Below the pieces are notes generated by a model. The model worked only from the letters and a program-made list of their open reading frames with translations. It was not told the DNA's origin and did not search any database. This document shows positions 15,772 to 40,683 of a DNA stretch of 64,000 nt, one piece after another. Where the stretch lies: the NCBI GenBank assembly GCA_949292785.1, contig CASFBK010000002.1, positions 285,728-349,727 of the forward strand, given 5' to 3'. Source of the stretch: an uncultured Eubacteriales bacterium. Lineage in GTDB: Bacteria; Bacillota; Clostridia; Lachnospirales; Lachnospiraceae. The first letter of the stretch is position 1; each line of letters opens with the position of its first letter. Position numbers and translations under genes: made by a program.

Positions 15772-16518
15772 ATGAAGGAAAAACTATATACCATCCCCAT
15801 TCAGGATGCATTTTCAAAGGATTGTGAGTGTCCGGTCTGTGAGATGTATCGAAAGTTAGAAGAAAATGCCATAAATTATACCGTCGGACCAGGCGCAAGC
15901 TACATGGAAGAGGATATCAGAGAACAGAGTGACAGAGAGGGCTTTTGTCAGAAGCATCTGAAACAACTTTATGCATATCCAAATAAGCTTGGAATTGCCA
16001 TGATGCTGAAAACCCATATGGACAAGACGATTAAGGATTTAGAAAAGGTGTCTAAGGTATCTCTGCCGCAGCCGAATTCTATGTTCAAAAAGAAGGAAGT
16101 GCAATCGCATCCCATTACGGATTACATTGCGCAATCCCAGGAGAAGTGTTTTGTATGTGGATATATCAATCAGACCTTTCAAAGCTATATGATGACAATA
16201 TTTTATCTATACGAGCGGGAAGAGGAGTTCCGTCAGCAGTTTGCTTCTTCCAAGGGATTTTGTGTCAATCACTATAAGATTTTATTTGAGCAGGCGCCAA
16301 GATATCTGAACAAGAAGTATTTAGAGACATTTCTGACTACGTTAAATCAGATTTTTATGGAGAACTTTAAACGGGTGCGGGATGACCTGGAATGGTTCAT
16401 TCGCAAAAATGATTACCGATATAAGGAAGAGCCATGGAAGAATGGAAGAGATGCGCTGCCAAGAGCCCTGACTAAAGTCGGCAGTATCTGGAACGGAGAA
16501 GAAGGAGGATTACAATGA
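15772..16518 (+). CDS. Conserved Cys/His-rich protein (DUF6062-like)
   Basis: 248 residues, no signal peptide or membrane segment. Two similar blocks each carry a CxxC followed by FCxxH: CPVC with FCQKH in the first half (about 20-63) and CFVC with FCVNH (about 124-168) in the second. This suggests an internal duplication with two metal- or redox-active sites. I recall the arrangement from the uncharacterised DUF6062 family of Clostridia but cannot confirm it. Its last codons overlap the start of the aminotransferase gene (ATGA), so the two are co-translated. Function unknown. Confidence 0.75.
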   Translation: MKEKLYTIPIQDAFSKDCECPVCEMYRKLEENAINYTVGPGASYMEEDIREQSDREGFCQKHLKQLYAYPNKLGIAMMLKTHMDKTIKDLEKVSKVSLPQPNSMFKKKEVQSHPITDYIAQSQEKCFVCGYINQTFQSYMMTIFYLYEREEEFRQQFASSKGFCVNHYKILFEQAPRYLNKKYLETFLTTLNQIFMENFKRVRDDLEWFIRKNDYRYKEEPWKNGRDALPRALTKVGSIWNGEEGGLQ

Positions 16519-17708
16519 TTAATCAAATGTATAAAGATATGTTAAATGGAAAATCCATTATCCGACAGCAGTCGGAATTTGCAACAGAGCTTGGGAAAAC
16601 AATCGGATATGAAAATGTTTTTGACTATAGTCTTGGAAATCCAAGTGTCCCGGTGCATGAATCCTATACAGCAGTCATGCAAGATTTACTGAATGATTTA
16701 GACCCGGCTAAGCTGCATGGCTACAGTCCGTCTCTGGGAAATACGGAAGTCCGCACCAAGGTGGCTGCAAGCTTAAAGCAGCGTTTTGGTCTGGATTACG
16801 AGACAAAGCATATTTTTATGACCAGTGGAGCAGCGGGCGCGCTCGCTCACGCACTGCGCTGTGTGACTCAGCCGGGGGATGAGGTCATTACCTTTGCACC
16901 GTTTTTTCCGGAGTATCATGAGTATGTAGGAAAGACGGGAGCAATTTTAAAGGTGGTTCCGGCGAATACAAAGGATTTTCAGATTAACTTTGATGCATTT
17001 GAAGAACTCCTGACAGAAAAGGTTCAGGCAGTTTTAATCAATACACCAAATAATCCATCGGGAATTGCCTATTCGGAAGAAACCATTATCAAAATGGCGG
17101 AGCTTATGAAGCGGAAGCAGGAGGAATACGGACACGATATTTTCCTGATTAGTGACGAGCCTTATCGGGAAATCGTATTTGATGGAAAAGAGACGGTCTA
17201 TCCCAGCAGATATTATGATAATTCTCTTTCCTGCTATTCCTTTTCTAAGAGCCTAAGCCTTCCGGGAGAGCGAATTGGTTATATTGCGGTAAATCCAAAG
17301 GCAACAGATGCAGATATCATTGCGGTGATGTGCGGGCAAATCAGCCGCGGTATCGGACATAACTGTCCTTCTTCCAGCGTTCAGCTTGCAGTAGCAGAGG
17401 TGCTGGATAAGACCAGTGACCTATCTGTTTACGAGAAAAATATGAATCTGATTTATGATGAACTGATAAAACTGGGCTTTGAGGTAGTAAGACCGGGCGG
17501 AACCTTTTATATTTTCCCGAAGGCATTAGAAGAGGATGCAACGGCATTCTGCCTGAAGGCAAGAAAATATAATCTGATTCTGGTGCCAAGTGACAGCTTC
17601 GGTGTGCCGGGATATTTCAGAATGGCATATTGTATTGATACCGAAAAGGTATTACGAAGTTTTTCCGCATTGGAGCAGTTTGTAAAGGAAGAATATGGAG
17701 TAAAATAG
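16515..17708 (+). CDS. Class I/II pyridoxal-phosphate aminotransferase
   Basis: 397 residues of the AspC/AAT fold-type I family. Visible motifs: HGYSPSLGN near the N-terminus, MTSGAAGALAHAL (phosphate-binding loop), NTPNNPSGIAYSEE, ISDEPYREIVFDG, and SFSKSLSLPGERIGY with the Schiff-base lysine. The start ATG overlaps the stop of the preceding gene as ATGA. Substrate cannot be fixed; homologues are usually annotated as generic aspartate/aromatic-type aminotransferases. A strong terminator follows. Confidence 0.9.
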   Translation: MINQMYKDMLNGKSIIRQQSEFATELGKTIGYENVFDYSLGNPSVPVHESYTAVMQDLLNDLDPAKLHGYSPSLGNTEVRTKVAASLKQRFGLDYETKHIFMTSGAAGALAHALRCVTQPGDEVITFAPFFPEYHEYVGKTGAILKVVPANTKDFQINFDAFEELLTEKVQAVLINTPNNPSGIAYSEETIIKMAELMKRKQEEYGHDIFLISDEPYREIVFDGKETVYPSRYYDNSLSCYSFSKSLSLPGERIGYIAVNPKATDADIIAVMCGQISRGIGHNCPSSSVQLAVAEVLDKTSDLSVYEKNMNLIYDELIKLGFEVVRPGGTFYIFPKALEEDATAFCLKARKYNLILVPSDSFGVPGYFRMAYCIDTEKVLRSFSALEQFVKEEYGVK

Positions 17709-17723
17709 AAAATGTAATTTTTC

Positions 17724-17765
17724 ATACTGCGTTAAATAGAAAATATTTAGCGCAGTATTTTTTTG
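17724..17765 (+). terminator. Rho-independent terminator of the aminotransferase operon
   Basis: atactgcgttaaat (17724-17737) pairs over 14 bp, with one G-U, with atttagcgcagtat (17745-17758) and runs into a T tract. Confidence 0.9.
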
Positions 17766-17908
17766 CTCTATAGGAAACACCGTGTTGCGTTAAAGCGTAA
17801 AATTGTGATTCCTATAGAGCAAAAAGCACTCCGTACAGGATGCGCACTCGCACAAGTGGAATTATGTCGCAAGCGACTGTGCTCGGCGCGGCAAAGTGTG
17901 TTCCGCTT
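17757..17908 (+). ncRNA. Structured intergenic element, copy 1
   Basis: A perfect 16-bp inverted repeat, ttttgctctataggaa (17761-17776) with its complement (17809-17824), is followed by aaaaagc and a nested stem. The stem is GCGC (17842-17845 with 17886-17889), GCACA with TGTGC (17850-17854, 17878-17882) and GTCGC with GCGAC (17866-17870, 17873-17877). aagtgga in the internal loop can pair with tccgctt at 17902-17908, a possible pseudoknot. The same plan with different bases occurs at 39205-39364. It lies just upstream of the PadR gene. Whether it is an RNA or a repeat element is unknown. Confidence 0.6.
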
Positions 17909-17955
17909 GATAGGTAATGTATATTCGCGAGAGTCGGAAAAGGGAAGAGAAACAG

Positions 17956-37621: not shown

Positions 37622-37773
37622 GAGCATGCTATATTTGAGATAATGTAAAAAAATCGTGTAATATTTCATAAAAATTCGGCAAAATATCACAAAAAGATTG
37701 AAAAAAATAAAGAAAATTGTTAATATAAAATATATAGCTTTATTATACAGTGAGTGTGATTGGAGGGAAACAG

Positions 37774-39132
37774 ATGGCAGCATCAAAAGAGCCGAGAATA
37801 AGAATTAGCGATGATGACATGAAGGCATTTCTCTATATAGCAGATGACATAAAGGAAAAGTATGATAGTGAGGGAGCTGTCCGTCAGTTTTTAAAGGAAA
37901 AGGGAGTTACCTATGGAATCATAGAAGAAAATCTAAAAGAACTGTTAGAGAAGCAATTATATAATCGTGAAGTCCTTATTGCAGAAGGAATTCCGCCACA
38001 AAACGGTGTGGATGGATATTATGAATATAAGTTTAATCTTGACTTTAGCAAGAAACCAAAGATACGTCCGGATGGAACGGTAGATTACTGGAGTATCAAG
38101 ATGGTAGAGACCGTAGAGGAAGGTCAGGTAATTGCAATCTATCATAAAGCATATCAGGGTACAGATGGTATGAATGTAAAAGAAAAAATAGTCCTTGCAA
38201 AGCGTGGAAGAGATCAGGTTCCGTTACGAGGAAAGGGATTTGAGCGTTCCCAGGATGGAAATATCTATACCGCATTGATTAACGGAAAAATCGAAATGAT
38301 GAATGGAAGGATTACTATTCTTCCGGTTTATGAGATAAATGGCGATGTGGACTTATCTGTTGGCAATATTGATTTCAGAGGAGATGTCATTATTCATGGT
38401 GGAGTCTGCACGGGAGTCAGCATTAAAGCCACCGGAACAGTTACCATTGACGGCATTGTAGAAGGCGCTCAGATTGAGGCAGGAAAGGATGTCGTATTAA
38501 GAAGCGGTGTGATGGGAGCGTCCAGAGCTAGTATTACAAGCCGGGGAAATATTACAGCGAAGTTTTTTGAGTATACCAGAGTACATGCCAACGGTTCTAT
38601 TCAGGCGGATGTGTTCTTGAACTGTAAAGTTTCCTGTGGAGAAAGTATTACTCTGGATGGTAAGAAAGCCAGCATTGTAGGCGGAGATGTATGGGCGATT
38701 GAAAGTATTTCTGTACATACCCTTGGAAGTGACGGTGAGGTCAAGACCAAAGTAAAAATCGGAAATGATGCAGCAGTTGTGCGGCGCATTTCCATCCTGC
38801 GCAATAAGATAGAAGTAGAACAGGAAAATTTACGGAAGATAGAAGAAGGACTGAAGCTTTTGCAGGATGTGAAAAATGACCCTCGCCGGACCGAATTACT
38901 GCGTGTAAAGATTCGTGACAGCGCTTTGCTTGCAGACGATACCGCTGAACTCGAAAAGCTTGAAAATCAGGTGGAACGTGCAAAGGGAGGAAATATTGCA
39001 GTAAAAGGAAAGGTATATCCGGGAGTGTGCGTGGAAATGGATGACCTGCGGGTTCAGGTGAAAGAAGAACAGGAAAATCTGGAATTTATAAAGAATCAGG
39101 ATAAAATTATTATGTGTCAGTTAGAAATATAA
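37774..39132 (+). CDS. FapA-family (DUF342) protein
   Basis: 452 residues from the ATG at 37774 (GGAGGG site). An N-terminal region (about 1-165) precedes the DUF342 core of repeated short beta turns (GDVDLSVGNIDFRGDVIIHGGV, then ITSRGNITAKFFEYTRVHANG), a right-handed beta-helix like polymer-forming bactofilin-type repeats, followed by a long coiled coil (about 340-450). The family is widespread in Firmicutes; a role in surface or envelope organisation has been suggested, but no activity is established. No signal peptide. Confidence 0.85.
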   Translation: MAASKEPRIRISDDDMKAFLYIADDIKEKYDSEGAVRQFLKEKGVTYGIIEENLKELLEKQLYNREVLIAEGIPPQNGVDGYYEYKFNLDFSKKPKIRPDGTVDYWSIKMVETVEEGQVIAIYHKAYQGTDGMNVKEKIVLAKRGRDQVPLRGKGFERSQDGNIYTALINGKIEMMNGRITILPVYEINGDVDLSVGNIDFRGDVIIHGGVCTGVSIKATGTVTIDGIVEGAQIEAGKDVVLRSGVMGASRASITSRGNITAKFFEYTRVHANGSIQADVFLNCKVSCGESITLDGKKASIVGGDVWAIESISVHTLGSDGEVKTKVKIGNDAAVVRRISILRNKIEVEQENLRKIEEGLKLLQDVKNDPRRTELLRVKIRDSALLADDTAELEKLENQVERAKGGNIAVKGKVYPGVCVEMDDLRVQVKEEQENLEFIKNQDKIIMCQLEI

Positions 39133-39170
39133 GAAACTGTCGAAAAAACAATACAAAATATGCTTGCATA

Positions 39171-39208
39171 AAATCACCACTTTATTATAATAAAGAGTGG
39201 TGATTTTT
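39171..39208 (+). terminator. Rho-independent terminator of the FapA-family gene
   Basis: aaatcaccact (39171-39181) pairs with agtggtgattt (39196-39206) around an AT-rich loop; five T (39204-39208) overlap the arm end. The tract also begins the first stem of the structured element. Confidence 0.85.
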
Positions 39209-39364
39209 CATTCACCAAAAAGCCTGTGAATGAAAAAGCCCTACCGGGCGGGAGGCGCACTCGTGCAAGCGGAAGAGGTCACTTTGTGACTGCACTCGGC
39301 GCATAAGCGCAGCAAGTCCTTTCAGGGTGAAGGAAGTAAGGAGGCGAAGCGGACTTGTCCGCTT
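39205..39364 (+). ncRNA. Structured intergenic element, copy 2
   Basis: A first stem ttttcattcac (39205-39215) with gtgaatgaaaa (39226-39236) is followed by aaagcc and a nested stem: GCGC (39255-39258 with 39299-39302), GTGCA with TGCAC (39263-39267, 39291-39295) and GTCAC with GTGAC (39278-39282, 39286-39290). Compared with copy 1 at 17757-17908, single-strand blocks (cactcg, aag-gga, ctcggcgc, tccgctt) are kept while paired bases change together. It ends 5 bp before the folC ATG. Confidence 0.6.
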
Positions 39365-39369
39365 TATTC

Positions 39370-40683
39370 ATGAGAACATACGAAGAAATAATAGAAGAAA
39401 TAGCAGAGATACCAAAGTTTACGACGAAGCATCCGTTAGCACATACAAAGGATTTTTTGGCAAGACTGGGAAATCCGCAGGAGCAGTTTAAAGTGATACA
39501 TGTAGCAGGCAGCAATGGCAAAGGAAGCGTTTGTGCCTGCATTGCCAGTGTTTTACAAGAAAACGGGAAGTGTACAGGATTATTTACATCCCCACATCTG
39601 GTGGATATTGAAGAACGGTTCGTTATAGATGGAAAACAGTGTACAAAGGAAGCATTTGTTCAGGCAGTGGAAACAGTGCACTCTGTAGTAGAACAGATGG
39701 AACAGGAAGGGATACCACATCCTTCCTATTTTGAATATCTTTTTGCAGTGGGCATGGTAATTTTCCGGGAAAAGAAAGTGGAATATGCTGTGTTGGAAAC
39801 CGGACTGGGGGGCAGGCTGGATGCTACCAATGTGGTGGAGCATCCATTGCTTACAGTAATTACCTCTATCAGTCTGGAACATACAGAGATTTTAGGAGAT
39901 ACCATAGAAAAGATTGCAGGAGAAAAGGCAGGAATTATAAAGCCGCAGGTTCCGGTGGTATATGATGCATCAGATAAAACGGCAGCCGATGTGATTCGGA
40001 AGCGTGCAGAGCAGTTAAAGTGCAAAATGTTTCCGGTTTATCCGGAGAAAATTAAAATTTTATTAAACACTGGGAAAAAGATTGATTTTTCTTATGAATC
40101 TAGGTATGATGTTACTAAAGTTCAAATTCCATTTGGAGCGTCCTATCAGGCGCAGAATGCAGCCATTGCATTAATGGCAGTAAACTGTATTCAGGAAAAG
40201 GAAGCTATATCCAGTGAAGCAATTCTGGAAGGAATGCGTAAGGTGCATTGGAAAGGAAGAATGCAGGAAGCATTAGAGGATGTTTATTTTGACGGAGCTC
40301 ATAATGCGGATGGGATTCGGTGCTTTTTACAGGCGGTGCGGGAGATATCCGGGGAACCGTCGGTATTACTTTTTTCCATGGTGCAGGAAAAGGACTATAC
40401 AAATGCGATTCGGGAATTGTTACAGGAGGGAAGCTGGGAACAGATTTTTGTAACAACCATTTCCGATGCTCGTGGAATTGCATGTGGAACGTTGAAGCAG
40501 GTGTTTGAAAAGGAAGCGCTTGCAATGAATCAGAATATACAGATTACGCAGATAGATAATGTTGAGAAAGCCTTTGCAGAGGCAGTAAAAGCCAAAAGAA
40601 AAGGGCAGAAGCTGTTTTGTGCAGGGTCCTTGTATCTCGTTGGAGAATTAGAGCGAATAACAGGAGGTATGAAAAATGCTTAA
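39370..40683 (+). CDS. folC: Folylpolyglutamate synthase / dihydrofolate synthase
   Basis: 437 residues from the ATG at 39370. P-loop VAGSNGKGSVCACIASVL, TSPHLVDIEERF, LETGLGGRLDATNVV and AGEKAGIIKP are the FolC/Mur-ligase signatures. It adds glutamate to folates in the cytoplasm. The start is uncertain: AAGGAGG (39338-39344) is 25 nt from the ATG, but hairpin aagcgga-cttg-tccgctt (39347-39364) between them would shorten the distance to about 7 nt. A TTG at 39355, 10 nt from the AAGGAGG, is the alternative and would add five residues. Confidence 0.93.
   Translation: MRTYEEIIEEIAEIPKFTTKHPLAHTKDFLARLGNPQEQFKVIHVAGSNGKGSVCACIASVLQENGKCTGLFTSPHLVDIEERFVIDGKQCTKEAFVQAVETVHSVVEQMEQEGIPHPSYFEYLFAVGMVIFREKKVEYAVLETGLGGRLDATNVVEHPLLTVITSISLEHTEILGDTIEKIAGEKAGIIKPQVPVVYDASDKTAADVIRKRAEQLKCKMFPVYPEKIKILLNTGKKIDFSYESRYDVTKVQIPFGASYQAQNAAIALMAVNCIQEKEAISSEAILEGMRKVHWKGRMQEALEDVYFDGAHNADGIRCFLQAVREISGEPSVLLFSMVQEKDYTNAIRELLQEGSWEQIFVTTISDARGIACGTLKQVFEKEALAMNQNIQITQIDNVEKAFAEAVKAKRKGQKLFCAGSLYLVGELERITGGMKNA

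Follow-up and report, generated by a model that had tools for sequence, protein, structure and literature searches.

The window analyzed here, a stretch of 64,000 nucleotides from an uncultured Eubacteriales bacterium of the family Lachnospiraceae (GCA_949292785.1, contig CASFBK010000002.1), carries two intergenic copies of an abundant folded repeat. With a probability of roughly 60%, this repeat is a non-autonomous mobile DNA element, a single-stranded form of which would be joined, by an enzyme acting in trans, to the lagging-strand template just behind an intrinsic terminator. Most of its copies have inserted behind the T-tracts of terminators; the repeat is polymorphic between relatives, shows a replication-strand bias, ends in hairpins and lacks a long target duplication at the two sites where an empty counterpart is available. 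The original prediction for the two copies left the choice between a conserved RNA and a folded mobile repeat. The latter half is borne out by the many copies, by near-identical copies among them and by the empty sites in a relative, while the former is not: despite covariation in the helices, G-T mismatches are no more frequent than A-C ones. A DNA element rather than a conserved RNA is therefore the most likely reading, given the target, the empty sites, the orientation and the balance between the two kinds of mismatch.

Insertion behind intrinsic terminators

In most copies, the element lies directly 3′ of the T-tract of an intrinsic terminator, in the sense of the terminated gene. In 110/117 distinct left flanks, three or more consecutive T occur no further than 8 nt from the left end. 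A hairpin of −6 kcal/mol or better ends at the T-tract in 90 of the 117 flanks, as opposed to 164/1144 control T-runs, where controls were runs of at least four T anywhere in the same loci, coding DNA included, and flanks needed only three or more. T occupies positions −7 to −2 in 89, 101, 103, 95, 112, and 104 of the 117 flanks, respectively, and position −1 is a purine in 89 of them; the consensus of the target tract is TTTTTTR.

Two near-identical copies in the window's genome (G000) are absent from the genome G026, whose sequence continues straight across both sites, and no target duplication beyond about 2 nt is present at either of them. At one of these two sites, G006 carries a bare 5′ hairpin. 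Polymorphism is also evident at the terminator of the trpE leader, which was compared in 18 upstream stretches (those of G003, G010, and G015 do not show the site). Different subfamilies occupy it in G000, G026, G027/G004, G011, and G017/G028, element remnants are found in G005, G006, and G007, and the site appears unoccupied in G018, G002, and G012 and probably also in G019 and G021. Several species thus have the repeat inserted 3′ of the leader terminator and ahead of trpE (loci L300, positions 1080-1500, L301, L303, L307, and L313), and it occurs twice in tandem at the trpE site of the window's genome. A T-box is called by Rfam in the trpE leader (L115); behind the leader terminator, the element thus puts further hairpins between the T-box and the gene, and its insertion may change leader read-through.

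Architecture of the repeat

The element is about 150–250 bp long and consists of a 5′ hairpin (P1, often carrying TAGGAAA), usually an A-tract foot, a conserved core of three helices (P2, P3, and P4) and a 3′ hairpin (P5) with a T-rich end. The foot contains at least four consecutive A's in 106/150 distinct elements. The linker between foot and core holds a small hairpin with a TCC loop, whose arms are of variable sequence and reach at least two pairs in 83/134 distinct linkers. In the core, GCGCACTCG and CTCGGCGC are fixed in most copies. Across 96 distinct rows from many genomes, an alignment fitted to the covariance model (CM), 97.3% of the core cells are paired and 146 cells are changed on both sides (36 in shuffles). 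TTTGTTC is present at the end of the 3′ hairpin in 59/151 elements, and the right end accordingly looks element-encoded. Of 191 pattern matches, 155 had a P1 that a script could detect; the other 36, which were left out, are by eye mostly chance matches along with some real elements with a decayed P1, and 17 loci, chosen by eye as well, were discarded as chance matches.

A further pairing between aagYgga and tccgctt had been proposed. A 6-mer of the aagYgga strand can pair downstream, with G-T allowed, in 106/149 elements, as opposed to 62.4 expected from shuffling; the pairing is hence above chance but not universal, and a pseudoknot common to all elements is not supported.

Subfamilies swap parts, one 5′ hairpin start being joined to differing 3′ ends. 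Furthermore, elements occur in tandem arrays with right-left junctions, which fit but do not prove a single-strand circle as intermediate. One such array in G028 (C1:186748-187399) holds four elements with a period of about 196 bp. In several copies of the window's genome (L057-L059, L061, and L067), helix P3 begins with an additional hairpin of about 55 nt, and several contigs of this assembly end inside copies of this kind. Other loci (L065, L070-L074, and L410) are reduced to the 5′ hairpin or to slightly more than that; their right ends vary, and they too follow terminator-like sequence. In a TATATAT subfamily (L185, L232, L273, and L286), this motif is present at the left flank, in the foot and at the right end, and no terminator is evident upstream.

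Orientation relative to replication

All 34 of 34 copies in the window's genome lie in the leading-strand sense, so that their top strand is the lagging-strand template. The same holds for 46/48 copies in G028, where one more of the 49 core matches falls in a flip zone (flips placed by GC skew over 20 sampled stretches at 1.02-1.22 and 3.44-3.64 Mb), and for 8/9 copies in eight stretches of G013, a genome with 29 matches. Gene-end terminators outside the elements are in the leading-strand sense in only 70/92 cases in G000 and 15/24 in G028 (Fisher 0.0009 and 0.0005, respectively, the latter with 47/49; each copy of a tandem array is counted separately in all strand counts and tests). Open reading frames (ORFs) follow the leading-strand sense in 351/414 cases in the G000 stretches and 210/277 in G028.

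Mismatches in the helices

Selection on an RNA should yield an excess of G-T over A-C mismatches. Under equal penalties, P1 shows 49 G-T and 48 A-C mismatches and P5 shows 14 and 13, while the core contains 4 and 19, a single closing pair accounting for seven of the latter. The terminators upstream of the elements, which serve as a control, contain 47 and 5 (part of these counts, that of the terminators among them, still includes four chance loci that were removed for the left-flank counts). Since G-T mismatches make up 4 of 1237 core cells, in an alignment fitted to a Watson-Crick pair model that may lose some G-T rows, as opposed to 47 of 788 cells in the terminators, active copies would appear to carry hardly any G-T. 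Such a pattern is typical of inverted repeats maintained at the DNA level, or of a structure that is unselected after insertion. The excess expected of a selected RNA is absent, and the conserved-RNA reading is therefore unsupported. In general terms, covariation alone is no proof of an RNA; comparing G-T with A-C mismatches, against neighboring terminators as control, helps to separate DNA from RNA structure.

Proposed mechanism and search for the mobilizing enzyme

In the proposed mechanism, the replication fork would expose the lagging-strand template, on which the terminator would fold as a DNA hairpin with its T-tract left free. The single-stranded element, folded into its own hairpins, would then be joined at the T-tract by an enzyme acting in trans, and the A-tract foot of its 5′ hairpin would pair with the T-tract of the target. 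This pairing is supported by the four TATATAT loci, all of one lineage, which replace the usual T6, A5 and T-rich sequences in left tract, foot and right end together. Tandem arrays would be expected because the 3′ hairpin and T-rich end of the element resemble the target. The enzyme is most likely a single-strand (HUH-like) transposase. More tentatively, the repeat could belong to none of IS200/IS605, IS91, and group II introns and instead represent a novel type of single-strand DNA element; its enzyme would recognize a hairpin with a free T-tract at forks and read the tract by base pairing with the A-rich foot.

Several observations weigh against this interpretation. The Y1 transposase family PF01797 is missing from G000, G008, G011, and G017, i.e., from four of the eight carriers tested, and the Y2 family PF04986 is missing from seven of the eight, being present in G011 only. 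Three pairs of neighboring copies enclose genes that look like ordinary housekeeping genes. The conserved core between the end hairpins exceeds what mobility of the IS200/IS605 type is known to require. About 20 further nucleotides in G000 are unexplained at one of the two empty sites, and coding DNA is included among the control T-runs. The likeness of the 3′ end to the target is only loose, since an unbroken run of at least five T follows the 3′ hairpin in only 24/147 elements and a scan of one leader did not classify this hairpin as a terminator. The mismatches may merely reflect decay after insertion. Finally, selection or gene layout may account for part of the strand bias, because with the share of ORFs as null the chance is about 0.004 for the 34/34 in G000 (about 0.0002 for G028).

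Y1 genes (PF01797) are also present in the carriers G015 and G031, and the Y1 elements of G028 and G013 have ends and sites that differ from those of the repeat. A consistent Y1, Y2 or group II partner was not found; no search was aimed at TnpB, relaxases, or transposases of the DDE, serine and other types. An autonomous copy with an internal gene was considered as well, and the extra length in the copies read turned out to be only the hairpin of about 55 nt.

Alternative explanations

Among the alternatives, the one that survives best, although unlikely, is a retroelement resembling group IIC introns, or a short RNA carried in trans on group IIC particles, that reverse-splices into the single-stranded terminator at the fork. 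Target and strand rule are the same as those of the repeat, and group II introns occur in several carrier genomes. Moreover, one study reports that the group IIC particle of E. rectale binds a DNA stem-loop and that such proteins use lagging strands (PMC10190682). However, no match to the intron model RF00029 was found in G000, G015, G017, G006, G005, and G002, which carry 19 to 77 copies; of these, G015 and G005 are 88% and 84% complete, and G017 has group II D1-D4 matches beside a split reverse transcriptase (RT). No Rfam intron model matches the element itself, and there is no excess of G-T. G000 has two RTs, one matching a retron I-B model and the other the DRT model UG31, both defense types. 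The first lies in a three-gene cluster of the window's genome (L154, contig C13, about 38.4-41.8 kb) with an ATPase-Toprim protein, which matches the retron I-B models along with the RT, and a NucC/PD-DExK-like protein of 303 aa; a cluster that is similar by sequence is found in G008 (L156). The other (L159, 976-2115, contig C10) lies beside a separate ORF of 182 aa.

A conserved functional RNA, either cis-regulatory or a small RNA, that was copied to many places is improbable. It would account for the strong covariation of the core, for the position upstream of genes and, at trpE, for the location behind the terminator of a T-box leader. The mismatch test and the empty sites speak against it as the principal explanation: G-T is not favored over A-C, and the element is present or absent at orthologous genes of relatives. 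In addition, no promoter-like site was found in the one leader scanned.

Similarly improbable is an ordinary miniature inverted-repeat transposable element moved by a DDE transposase with a preference for terminators. The repeat is small, intergenic and repetitive, and the copies read contain no gene, as would be expected of such an element. By inspection, however, the unit as a whole is not bounded by a terminal inverted repeat (TIR), the two empty sites lack a duplication longer than about 2 nt, the element itself seems to encode its right end, and a replication-strand bias is evident. The weakest alternative, which we consider very unlikely, is an enzyme-free spread by template switching on the lagging strand between sequences made up of a hairpin and a T-tract; it fits the T-rich tails of the hairpins at element end and target, the tandem arrays and the lagging-strand bias, but the constant left end behind the target tract in many subfamilies is hard to obtain by slippage.

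The two copies in the window

Both copies (first delimited as 17757-17908 and 39205-39364) are on the forward strand and were confirmed by inspection of the sequence at the places and with the helices originally described. Copy 1 follows the intrinsic terminator (hairpin and T-tract, 17724..17764) of an aminotransferase gene (ORF 16515-17708; PF00155). Its 5′ hairpin P1 (CTCTATAGGAA...TTCCTATAGAGC) spans 17766..17820, the left end at 17766 being deduced from the empty site of a sister copy and from tandem junctions. It is followed by the A-tract foot (17821..17825), which is complementary to the target T-tract, and by the linker (17826..17841) with GGAT and the TCC triloop mini-hairpin, imperfect in this copy. 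The conserved core (17842..17889; CM R1 match at 17826-17889, 89.6 bits) comprises P2 (GCGC, 17842-17845/17886-17889), P3 (GCACA/TGTGC, 17850-17854/17878-17882) and P4 (GTCGC/GCGAC, 17866-17870/17873-17877). A remnant of P5 (17890..17934) completes the copy, without the 3′ arm and the TTTGTTC end seen in full copies such as L018 and L020; the extent first assigned to copy 1 is thus corrected to an end near 17934.

Copy 2 lies behind the intrinsic terminator (39170..39208) of a FapA gene (ORF 37750-39132; PF03961). Its P1 belongs to a different subfamily and forms 12 pairs including the T/A tracts (39204..39237). Linker and core occupy 39239..39302 (CM R1, 72.3 bits, the copy itself being one of the four rows of the model), with P2 at 39255-39258/39299-39302, P3 (GTGCA/TGCAC) at 39263-39267/39291-39295 and P4 (GTCAC/GTGAC) at 39278-39282/39286-39290. 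The 3′ domain (39303..39369) consists of a CAAGTCC/GGACTTG helix, an AAGCGGA/TCCGCTT hairpin and a TTTATTC end, a layout similar to that in L023, L106, and L118. Directly 3′ lies a Mur-ligase-type gene (ORF 39355-40683; PF08245). Since the 3′ domain contains AAGGAGG and a TTG in frame with this gene (39338-39371), the end of copy 2 may supply its ribosome binding site.

The compensated changes between the two copies, two in P3 and one in P4, are genuine. With the flanking T/A tracts included, the leading hairpins comprise 17 and 12 pairs; their left T's, however, are part of the upstream gene's terminator. The nested three-part stem of the core is supported by comparison among copies, and in the minimum-energy folds of both copies it does not take the form originally drawn. 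Folded as DNA, copy 1 has a z-score of −4.1 (0/200 shuffles as good); folded as RNA, copy 2 has a z-score of −2.2 (6/200).

Abundance and distribution

The covariance-model search suggested along with the original prediction recovered many further copies in Lachnospiraceae genomes. The model, built from four copies with both types of the window included, detects the core 33 times in the window's genome with E-values of up to 1, and blastn finds 44 places for the commoner type, many of them partial or cut by contig ends. Matches occur in 33 of 37 Lachnospiraceae genomes, with up to 77 per genome, as opposed to none of 24 genomes that represent the remaining families of the order. When 157 genomes sampled from the class were searched with stricter filters, two matched, both of the same family; five family members are among the genomes listed, and the remaining 152 are placed outside the family by listing order. 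A pattern scan of named genomes gives at least 120 matching stretches. Among 80 of these listed by title, seven belong to unrelated GC-rich organisms and are taken as chance matches; the rest come from Lachnospiraceae or unresolved Eubacteriales/Clostridiales, besides some genera that we presume to be Lachnospiraceae. As judged by these matches, the element appears so far confined to Lachnospiraceae and close, unresolved Eubacteriales.

The view that the repeat belongs to no named family holds for Rfam (release 15), which gives no match at gathering score over the element and only sub-threshold hits to unrelated families. A phage search returned one match, which lies outside the element, and a plasmid search returned none; a match of one stretch to a viral contig looks like chance. 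No description of the repeat was found in the literature searched, mostly outside subscription journals. An abundant repeat of a major gut family is hence present in neither Rfam nor this literature.

Comparison with known systems

Group IIC (bacterial-C) introns insert directly behind intrinsic terminators and use the template of lagging-strand synthesis (PMC8919778). The element is like them in its insertion behind terminators and in its strand rule. In contrast to these introns, it is only 150-250 bp long, shows no tolerance of G-T, has no Rfam group II intron match on the elements scanned and occurs in several carriers without an RF00029 match.

Elements of the IS200/IS605 family lack inverted repeats and long target duplications, use a short fixed target, end in hairpins and act on the lagging strand. 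Their hairpin ends and their use of the lagging-strand template are described in PMC6006769. The element is similar in having hairpin ends, a short fixed target, no TIR, no long duplication (at the two empty sites) and a bias for the lagging-strand template. It differs in that its target includes a hairpin, a conserved core lies in its middle, four of the eight carriers lack Y1, and the Y1 elements found in G028 and G013 share neither its ends nor its sites. The Y2 transposase of IS91-type elements, PF04986, is present in only one of the eight carriers, G011.

REP and REPIN sequences are high-copy intergenic palindromic DNA moved in trans by the HUH enzyme TnpA-REP (PMC6006769), REPs being 20-40 bp long (PMC3733652). 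The element is longer, has another layout and is bound to terminators, and G000 contains no Y1 gene, PF01797 being a family taken to include TnpA-REP. The BOX and SPRITE repeats of Streptococcus pneumoniae are small, modular and folded (PMC3049150). SPRITE resembles a terminator and is concentrated around the 3′ ends of genes, while BOX has TIRs similar to ISSpn2. Insertion behind terminators with a replication-strand bias is not mentioned in the passages of PMC3049150 consulted.

Because G000 contains no intron match on the element and no RF00029, Y1 or Y2, the repeat is placed apart from group IIC introns and IS200/IS605, and it would seem to be a new variant among the small, folded DNA repeats that are mobilized in trans. 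It offers a convenient assay by which the enzyme could be sought. Furthermore, the element points to a second route, besides that of group IIC introns, to terminators on the lagging-strand template as a safe harbor.
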